Positions 8,873 through 11,746 of a stretch of DNA of 28,731 bases are shown here, piece by piece. The translations under genes were made by a program, and so were the position numbers. The notes beneath the pieces are model-generated. The model searched no databases. It was given only the letters and a program-made list of their open reading frames with translations, and was not told where the DNA came from. The stretch spans positions 1 to 28,731 of the forward strand of contig JAUXGM010000008.1 of the NCBI GenBank assembly GCA_030622125.1, in the 5' to 3' direction. Source of the DNA: a bacterium (GTDB lineage Bacteria > AUK180). Positions within the stretch are counted from its first letter, which is position 1. The number at the start of each line of letters is the position of its first letter.

Positions 8873-10111
8873 TTATTCTTTAAATTCTCTTAACCATTTT
8901 TTTACACTGGTTATTAGATTGATACCCTTTGAGCTTTTTATATATACATTACGCTTTTTTTCTATAATATAGGATCTTCCCCACAAGATCAATCCGATCA
9001 CCGTGGAAAATTCGGGAGTAATATCAATGTTCTCAATTCCCGGGATCGTATGCTCTACCTGTCCGATCTGTATAATTAACGGAAAATGAGAGCTTGCAAT
9101 ATCAAGCATTTCATAAGCCATAGCTCCGCCACCTGTTATTACAATACCTGCCGAGAATTTTTCTTGTTCCATATAGTACTGAAGTTTATTATATATATTT
9201 CCGAAGATAGAATTAAATTTTTCCACGATATCTTTTTTTATGTTGGGCACGCGAATTTGTCTTTCCGCTCCACCGATTGTTTCAACAACGATCGTGTTTT
9301 TTCCGGAGAGAATGATCCTTTCAAATTCCACCTTTAATTTTTCTGCCGTATCAAGATTTAATGAGAAATCCTTTGCAATATCAAGTGTGATTTCTTTTCC
9401 GCCTCCAATGAAGGAGCTTGCAAAAAGTAAACTTTCATCACTATAAGCAGCAATATCAACATTTTCACCACCGATATCTATCATTATTACTCCGAGTTTT
9501 TTTTGATCATCACTAATTACAGTTTCTGCGGAAGCAAGTGAGTTGAGAACGAAGATTGGTTCTCTGACTCCCAGCGAATCATAGATCACATTTTTTAAAT
9601 TGCTGATCTGGTATTTGCTTGTTGCAAGAATATAACTATTAACACTTAATTTTTGACCTTCTAATCCCTCCGGATTTTTTATAAACGGGGTATTATCAAT
9701 GGAATAATATCTTGGTATCTTATGCAGAATATAACTTTTTTCATAAAGTCCGTCCGCATCCGAATTTTGTATAACGCTCTCAATATCTCCTTTTGTGATC
9801 CGTTTGTCCCGATGGTCAATTGTAATAACATTGTTCAATGTTCCATCGTATCCTTTAATATCTTCGCCTGTGATATTAACAAAATAATGTGATATATCCT
9901 TTTCTTTTAACCCGCTAAGATTTACTACTTCTTCAAAGCAATCTTTTAATGTATCCGTTGCTTCTCTCAGGTTTATAACCTTACCGCCTTTTATGGCATT
10001 ACAGACCTTTTTGGTCCCCCCAAGTATTTCAAGTTCACCGGTTTCATCAATACTTGCAATTAATAACTTAAATTGGTAGCCACCAAGATCAAGAGCACAT
10101 ATATAATTCAT
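8873..10111 (-). CDS. ftsA: Cell division protein FtsA (actin-like)
   Basis: A 412-residue actin-family ATPase that tethers FtsZ filaments to the membrane. The N-terminus has the phosphate-1 loop as ALDLGGYQFK (most FtsA have GLDIGTSK). The second phosphate loop is IMIDIGGENVDIAAY near residue 215, and the adenosine motif is VITGGGAMAYEM near residue 325. The C-terminus, NLITSVKKWLREFKE, is an amphipathic basic helix that fits the membrane-targeting sequence. Position just before ftsZ confirms the call. GGGAGGAA is an RBS about 5 bp before the ATG; the start overlaps the end of ftsQ by 4 bp. Confidence 0.95.
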   Translation of the reverse strand: MNYICALDLGGYQFKLLIASIDETGELEILGGTKKVCNAIKGGKVINLREATDTLKDCFEEVVNLSGLKEKDISHYFVNITGEDIKGYDGTLNNVITIDHRDKRITKGDIESVIQNSDADGLYEKSYILHKIPRYYSIDNTPFIKNPEGLEGQKLSVNSYILATSKYQISNLKNVIYDSLGVREPIFVLNSLASAETVISDDQKKLGVIMIDIGGENVDIAAYSDESLLFASSFIGGGKEITLDIAKDFSLNLDTAEKLKVEFERIILSGKNTIVVETIGGAERQIRVPNIKKDIVEKFNSIFGNIYNKLQYYMEQEKFSAGIVITGGGAMAYEMLDIASSHFPLIIQIGQVEHTIPGIENIDITPEFSTVIGLILWGRSYIIEKKRNVYIKSSKGINLITSVKKWLREFKE

Positions 10112-10821
10112 TTTATTCCTCCCAACATCAATATTCCCATTTTATTAAATCGTAGATCTATTCCAATGATCTTTTCTTTTATATCTAAGTGTTGACCCTT
10201 TATCATATTTATATAGTTCATTTTATCTATTCCCTCCAAATTCCTATCTAATTTAACAATAAATCCATTCCTGAGAACAAATTCGATCTCCCGTTTTTTT
10301 ATAATTACTTTTTCTAATGATACATTTATGTTTTGTATCTTGCCAATAGCCCTTTTTAATGAAGTAGATTCTTCGCTATCGCTCGGAATGACGAAACTTT
10401 TGATCCTGCCAATAACCATTTTTAAATATTTATTTTCATTCATATTATTTAATATAAAGTGAATTCCCCTCTTTGAGTTTGAACTTACTATCATTCCGTC
10501 TTCAAGAAGATCATAAGATTTGTTCTCATTTATGACATATCCGACAACTTGTTTTTCCTCAATAGTAATATTCAATATATTGGGTAAGATTTTTTCGTAG
10601 TTGATCTTTTTAATGTATCGGTTTGTATAAAGTTTGTCGATTATTTTGTTCAGATTAACGGTAAGTAAATTCTTTCCGATCAATTCATTTGTTGTCTTCA
10701 TAATCCACTCATTTTGTATGTATTTCAATTCATTTACTTTTATCGTATCAATAATAAATACATATTTACAACCTAAAAGTAAAATAAGAGTGATAAATAA
10801 AAAACTAATCTTTTTGTTCAT
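10108..10821 (-). CDS. ftsQ: Cell division protein FtsQ/DivIB, with an in-frame repeat insertion
   Basis: 237 residues, assigned by position between ddl and ftsA and by layout: one N-terminal hydrophobic segment (about 5-23), then a POTRA-like domain (IDTIKVNELKYI...NLLTVNLNKIIDKLYTNRYIKKINYEKILPN) and a beta-rich C-terminal domain. It would anchor the FtsQ-FtsL-FtsB group at the septum. Residues 133-162 hold an oddity: LKMVIGRI (133-140), then KSFVIPSDSEESTS (141-154), then LKRAIGKI (155-162), a repeated octapeptide around a translated palindromic element. The hydrophobic N-terminus reads LLLGC at 14-18, which resembles a lipoprotein cleavage box and is unexpected for FtsQ. It overlaps ddl by 17 bp. 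Confidence 0.85.
   Translation of the reverse strand: MNKKISFLFITLILLLGCKYVFIIDTIKVNELKYIQNEWIMKTTNELIGKNLLTVNLNKIIDKLYTNRYIKKINYEKILPNILNITIEEKQVVGYVINENKSYDLLEDGMIVSSNSKRGIHFILNNMNENKYLKMVIGRIKSFVIPSDSEESTSLKRAIGKIQNINVSLEKVIIKKREIEFVLRNGFIVKLDRNLEGIDKMNYINMIKGQHLDIKEKIIGIDLRFNKMGILMLGGIK
10336..10425 (-). repeat. Palindromic coding repeat in ftsQ with flanking 24-bp duplication
   Basis: Two 24-bp segments, minus-strand 10425-10402 and 10359-10336, match at 20 of 24 positions and encode LKMVIGRI and LKRAIGKI. Between them lie 42 bp (10360-10401) that include GTCATTCCGAGCGATAGCG, a motif I know as a common dispersed palindromic element in AT-rich bacterial genomes, read here as VIPSDSEES. 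Unit spacing is 66 bp, exactly 22 codons, so the frame is kept. Confidence 0.85.
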
Positions 10822-11746
10822 ATCGTCTCACTGCGTTTTTTAAGATCATTTCAACAAGTTCATCATAAGAAACACCATCATATACCGCTACCTGAGGAAG
10901 ATCGGAAAGATCGGTCATTCCCGGGATCGTATTTACATCATGCCAATAGACGGTACCATTTTTCAAGATACAATCGATTCTTGCAAAGTCCTTCAGATCT
11001 AATAATGAAAAAATCGCCTCTGCTTCACTTTTTATTTTTTTTGTCGTTTTATTATTTACTTTTGCCGGAACGATAAACTCCGTCGCTCCTTTTACATATT
11101 TTGCTTCATAGTTATAAAATTTTTTCTTTGCCCTTATTTCCATTAGAGAAAAAGATATTGTTCTTTTATTCTCTTCAATGATCCCGCAGGTGATCTCCTG
11201 TCCTTTTATATATTCCTCAACAATGACTATTCCATAATTTTTAAATATTTTGTTGCTGTTTTTATTTGCTTTTTCAATATTATCACACATTACAACACCA
11301 ATACTTGAACCCTGTTCGGATGCCTTGACAACAACCTTTTTGTGATCTTTAAATAGCCGATTTAATTTGTTATTGATCTCTTTTCTTTTCGTTATTACGA
11401 CGAATTCGGGAACCGTAAAATTGTAATGTTTTAAAAGAGGTTGGCAAATATGTTTTGCCATTGTAATGACCTGTGCCTCTGTTTTACTGCCTATATAAGG
11501 TATTTTGTATAGATCAAGAAAAGCTGCCATTCTCCCATTTTCACCTTCTCCGCCGTGAATTATATTAAAGACCATTGCAGGATTTGAAGAAATTAGTTCA
11601 TTGATATTATTGCCGTCAAATATAAACTTTTGAACATTGTATCCACTTCTTTTCAAACTGTTATAGATATTTTCACCGCTTTTTAAAGAAATCTTTCTTT
11701 CCGGAGATGTTCCACCCATTAAGACAACTATCTTTTTATTTTTCAT
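10805..11746 (-). CDS. ddl: D-alanine--D-alanine ligase
   Basis: A 313-residue ATP-grasp enzyme that joins two D-alanines for the peptidoglycan stem. Visible motifs: MGGTSPERKISL (10-21, including the D-Ala-binding Glu16), HGGEGENG (64-71), the ATP-loop KASEQGSSIG (141-150), FYNYEAKY (210-217) in the omega loop, and FARIDCI plus HDVNTIPGMT (269-278). The metal-binding Glu of the usual E-x-N-T-x-P-G-x-T motif is Asp270 here, while Asn272 is kept; Asp can still bind magnesium. The start overlaps the murB stop by 4 bp; AAGGTG is a plausible RBS. Confidence 0.95.
   Translation of the reverse strand: MKNKKIVVLMGGTSPERKISLKSGENIYNSLKRSGYNVQKFIFDGNNINELISSNPAMVFNIIHGGEGENGRMAAFLDLYKIPYIGSKTEAQVITMAKHICQPLLKHYNFTVPEFVVITKRKEINNKLNRLFKDHKKVVVKASEQGSSIGVVMCDNIEKANKNSNKIFKNYGIVIVEEYIKGQEITCGIIEENKRTISFSLMEIRAKKKFYNYEAKYVKGATEFIVPAKVNNKTTKKIKSEAEAIFSLLDLKDFARIDCILKNGTVYWHDVNTIPGMTDLSDLPQVAVYDGVSYDELVEMILKNAVRRYEQKD

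Follow-up and report, generated by a model that had tools for sequence, protein, structure and literature searches.

A putative CGTC-tagged REP element inserted in frame in ftsQ beside a duplicated 24-bp flank

The ftsQ locus and the layout of the insert

The window, i.e. the whole stretch of 28,731 nucleotides that was analysed, contains a division and cell-wall gene cluster in which ftsQ lies between ftsA and ddl. The relevant features, listed in order of their coordinates, are:

8873-10111, ftsA (ORF list), neighbour of ftsQ on the side opposite to ddl
10108-10821, minus strand, ftsQ (ORF list), 237 aa, with a POTRA_1 (FtsQ-type) domain, E 7e-10
10336-10359, minus strand, downstream 24-bp flank copy, encoding LKRAIGKI, residues 155-162
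10360-10401, minus strand, 42-bp insert between the flanks, encoding KSFVIPSDSEESTS, residues 141-154
10364-10393, minus strand, CGTC-tagged REP-like element CGTCATTCCGAGCGATAGCGAAGAATCTAC, matching a dispersed family, with tag and unpaired tail as in PMC3733652
10402-10425, minus strand, upstream 24-bp flank copy, encoding LKMVIGRI, residues 133-140, sharing 20 of 24 positions with the other flank
10805-11746, ddl (ORF list), neighbour of ftsQ in the division and cell-wall cluster

Read on the minus strand, the two flanks are TTAAAAATGGTTATTGGCAGGATC (10425-10402) and TTAAAAAGGGCTATTGGCAAGATA (10359-10336), with an offset of 66 bp; residues 133-162 of FtsQ are LKMVIGRI KSFVIPSDSEESTS LKRAIGKI, and the translation predicted for the insert region includes VIPSDSEESTSLK. 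The extra unit amounts to 22 codons, corresponding to one 24-bp flank and the 42-bp insert. The first-pass annotation had described two octapeptides encoded by 24-bp segments, identical at 20 of 24 positions and separated by 42 bp, and had proposed an in-frame addition of 22 codons to ftsQ; sequence and coordinates are as described there, and the reading frame is open. The CGTCATTCCGAGCGATAGCGAAGAATCTAC motif occurs once in the window and is absent from the shuffled sequence.

FtsQ orthologues and protein models

The orthologue set consisted of FtsQ from four genomes of the same family (G001-G004), none of the same genus. The insert had been predicted to be absent from orthologues, and the same 22 residues in unrelated genomes would have spoken against an insertion; none of the four same-family proteins carries them. 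Deletions of all lengths between 0 and 30 residues were tried against the orthologues. For the two best-informed ones, removal of 22 residues gave the best fit: at about position 139 for G003 (score 325 vs 293 without deletion), and likewise for the G002 fragment (178 vs 150). The best fit for the G001 orthologue is instead a deletion of 17 residues. Once the insert is removed, the alignment with G003 is gapless across this region; the one copy present in G002 agrees with the upstream flank at its start (YLK) and with what follows the downstream flank (KIxNIN), as would be expected had one of the two flanks been added. The placement of the LPTDNE stretch of G001 and G004 against the insert in some alignments is an artefact of gapping: after insert removal, both proteins align without it.

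In the AlphaFold model of an orthologue without the insert (L017), this region comprises a strand (121-125), a helix (131-144) and a second strand (148-153), with pLDDT of 90-94. In the model of the window FtsQ, a helix (129-144) is followed by the short loop SDSEE, a second helix (150-164) and then a strand, the insert joining the two helices; here pLDDT is only 54-62, so that the local fold is to be taken as a suggestion. The models suggest that the insert lies in a surface helix of the FtsQ beta-domain, that an intact helix end beside the following strand comes from the second flank copy, and that the duplication re-creates a surface helix otherwise interrupted by the insert. Thus, the ftsQ copy may owe its survival to the duplication. 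The first-pass annotation had asked whether the insert is a surface loop; the model, of low confidence here, places it at the surface, within a helix.

The inserted core as a dispersed REP

Two superfamilies of REPs have been described, tagged GTAG or CGTC (Di Nocera et al. 2013, PMC3733652). The CGTC units have stems of 8-9 bp whose first positions are AT, loops of 4-5 nt and a 3-nt tail, mostly CCA, with variation allowed; the tag is unpaired at one end and has the variants TGTC and CCTC. These units are mostly found as head-to-head dimers, have no transposase and include intragenic members; Rickettsia RPE-4 and RPE-6 and the neisserial dRS3 belong to the same superfamily (PMC3733652).

The genome to which the window belongs contains 8 further copies of the core at up to 3 mismatches to the consensus GTCATTCTGAGCGAAGCGAAGAATCT, plus a few weaker ones, and the reversed control pattern has 0 matches in it. 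The earlier recognition of a dispersed palindromic repeat motif in the 42 bp, which absence of the core from the rest of the genome would have contradicted, is upheld by these matches. The own-genome copies tested besides this one are located in short open frames and are apparently intergenic, several of them near contig ends. Two CGTC copies are located at the edge of a 121-bp repeat (L120:918-1038 and L122:1001-1121, 92% identical between the sites), indicating that some copies belong to larger repeats. No core copy was found in the four same-family genomes, and 17 of 97 other genomes searched, unrelated ones included, contain from 1 to 72 copies each; the scan of genome contigs found the core in Bacteroidota, Zixibacteria, Hydrogenedentota, Nitrospinota, Chloroflexi and others. 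Nine viral contigs (L111-L119) carry the palindrome core as well, possibly via integration sites or host-derived ends.

The tag of the window copy reads CGTC, and in 97% of 137 copies the base before GTC is T or C; the tail of the window subfamily is TAC, and by inspection the window copy has an AT stem base and a short loop. The family arms, ATTCYGAGC and GCGAAGAAT, carry a tandem G.A mismatch, to which the window copy adds a C.A mismatch of its own, and it is therefore a poor palindrome when taken alone. Indeed, DNA folding gave a z of +0.65, and a strong hairpin in DNA or RNA at this copy was rejected, since both folding energies are no better than those of shuffles. Among 63 close pairs of copies in other genomes, 50 are in opposite orientation, head-to-head being the commonest arrangement (33/63). 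Rfam gave no match on the window, and no paper came up when the literature was searched for the exact motifs. On the basis of tag and intragenic occurrence, with a short tail of variant sequence and a stem that agrees in part, the core is placed with the CGTC-tagged REPs, and we classify it as a CGTC-type REP whose subfamily has no name in the literature examined. The repeat of RPE kind that had been proposed fits this assignment to a superfamily with Rickettsia members (PMC3733652), the insert being in frame and absent from orthologues.

Flanks of other copies and transposase genes

No flank duplication comparable to that of ftsQ was found at 13 other own-genome copies (best flank score 10), nor at 217 copies, mainly from other genomes with some own ones included. 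One of the 217 reaches a score of 18 and is a tandem array of the element itself, while the next two, with scores of 16 and 15, resemble neighbouring repeats; scores average 6.8, close to the 6.4 of shuffled pairs. Among the copies compared, the ftsQ one thus stands alone in its duplicated flanks, and the earlier hint that so long a duplication reflects a specific insertion mechanism finds no support for the family; a transposon with a target-site duplication of constant length at each copy was likewise rejected on these counts. Short duplications beside the element were also discarded as a signal, because a 5-bp excess was traced to one Hydrogenedentota genome with a common CCAACGT context. 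In that genome (JACRLJ01; L076, L080, L085, L093, L102, L105, L109) the palindrome is regularly bordered on both sides by CCAACGT or a close variant, a genome-specific extended form. A DNA methyltransferase of rumen Bacteroidales (L067:1-1521), judged against L081 and L091 as partial reference orthologues, contains three to four in-frame CGTC palindrome inserts, apparently in place of surface loops; no flanks of the ftsQ kind accompany them.

Four Y1_Tnp (RAYT-type) genes are present in the own genome. Linkage of the CGTC element to them was rejected, since the 3.3-kb stretches around the four genes contain no core copy; beside the CGTC copies examined no transposase gene was found. Three of the Y1_Tnp genes (L031, L032, L033) are bordered by inverted repeats of 25-34 bp sharing a GGGGACGGTGG end, and this motif or a close variant is also present in the vicinity of CGTC copies on two contigs, C119 and C12. 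When Y1 transposases of the RAYT type move a REP, no duplication of the target is expected.

Origin of the insertion

The best ungapped score between the two 50-bp flanks of the ftsQ insert is 18, and the similarity extends to 29 columns with one 1-base gap (local score 20). Of 59,402 random placements in the window, many of which overlap, 21 attain a score of 18, as do 3 of 58,661 random pairs drawn from the same gene cluster; the duplication of the flank is real, with a chance p of about 5e-5 to 4e-4. That the likeness is due to chance or to convergent helix sequence, only an insert of 42 bp or longer being real, is improbable: AT-rich codons of an amphipathic helix lift the background similarity, scores of 17-18 do turn up among random placements in the window and all three internal flank differences alter the amino acid, but the p-values refer to a location specified beforehand and the exact 22-residue deletion is the best fit for two orthologues. 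Still harder to accept is a family that inserts with a long target-site duplication through a dedicated enzyme, other copies having lost the duplication by decay. The layout of the window copy does match such a duplication; however, nothing comparable is seen at the 13 own copies, some of which are exact to the family consensus, or at the 217 screened, where high scorers are element arrays or neighbouring repeats and flank scores are close to those of shuffled pairs, and the few short matches in one Hydrogenedentota genome are one common CCAACGT, not site-specific duplications.

Sequence comparison indicates that a dispersed CGTC-tagged REP entered ftsQ in the lineage of this genome, with a net gain of 66 bp that would consist of about 42 bp with the element and about 24 bp of ftsQ that were copied again. 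Most likely, with belief somewhat outweighing doubt, this was one event, in which a REP was captured during local repair or template switch that also duplicated the target. A REP fragment would have been captured at a break or stalled fork, and the surrounding 24-29 nt would have been copied twice during capture, by fill-in of a long staggered break or by a template switch. A plain insertion would separate the surface helix from the following strand; the second flank would restore the C-terminal half of this helix beyond the insert, so that the FtsQ beta-domain could still fold, and selection in an essential gene may have kept an otherwise rare duplicated outcome, the REP probably staying in ftsQ because it is in frame. 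Against a single capture stand the 17-residue deletion favoured by the G001 orthologue, the expectation that RAYT-type transposition does not duplicate its target, the lack of a known transposase for CGTC REPs, and the fact that there is only one case, in a comparison limited to other genera where neither the empty site nor the order of events is visible. A sequence of two steps, in which slippage would have duplicated 24 bp (8 codons) of the helix in tandem before a REP entered between the copies, is a real though lesser possibility: slippage often produces duplications, each step would keep the frame because both 24 and 42 bp are divisible by three, and no other REP copy has duplicated flanks; however, the REP would have had to land almost exactly between the copies, the similarity beginning 5-6 bp from the core on both sides. 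As for the age of the event, the old date proposed in the first-pass annotation is compatible with flanks differing at 4 of 24 positions and with a core that has drifted. Extending the preferred single capture to the family, CGTC REPs might spread via repair or template switch duplicating 24-30 bp, the ftsQ copy recording one such event that was tolerable through the duplication; this generalisation is rather unlikely.

Comparison with known systems

In-frame decoration of conserved genes by REP or RPE units and the occurrence of CGTC units within genes are already known; the host lineage, the gene and the duplicated-flank footprint are new, and only the flanking duplication is unusual. The word "duplication" does not occur in the CGTC-REP paper (PMC3733652), so the footprint, a single case, may be unreported. 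For the question of how CGTC REPs move, given that they have no known transposase, an essential gene that took up such a unit and retains the trace of the event on both sides of it provides a rare handle. With this case, RPE-like decoration of proteins reaches a low-GC lineage outside those described, and it becomes apparent how a duplicated flank could rescue a structured domain.

The GTAG REPs, considered together with RAYT transposases, are similarly short dispersed palindromes, and this genome has four Y1_Tnp genes; here, however, the tag is CGTC, and the inspected RAYT genes are bordered by the GGGGACGGTGG inverted repeats, not by the core element. With the CGTC-tagged REPs the family shares the end tag, an AT stem base by inspection, a short tail, dispersal across unrelated phyla, head-to-head dimers as the commonest pairs, in-frame intragenic units and no transposase gene by the copies examined; it differs in the sequence of the tail, TAC instead of CCA, in the tandem G.A mismatch of the arms, in having only about a dozen copies in this genome, in a host lineage outside those described and in the duplicated flanks of the ftsQ copy. 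The Rickettsia RPE-4, RPE-6 and RPE-7 found in ORFs (PMC3767692) have the same GTCAT/ATGAC motif and a surface location, in frame in conserved housekeeping genes, but they measure 68-192 bp and occur in many genes, whereas here one 66-bp unit lies in one gene. As in RPEs, which are recognised by lying in frame in a conserved gene and being absent from its orthologues, both properties are found in the ftsQ insert.
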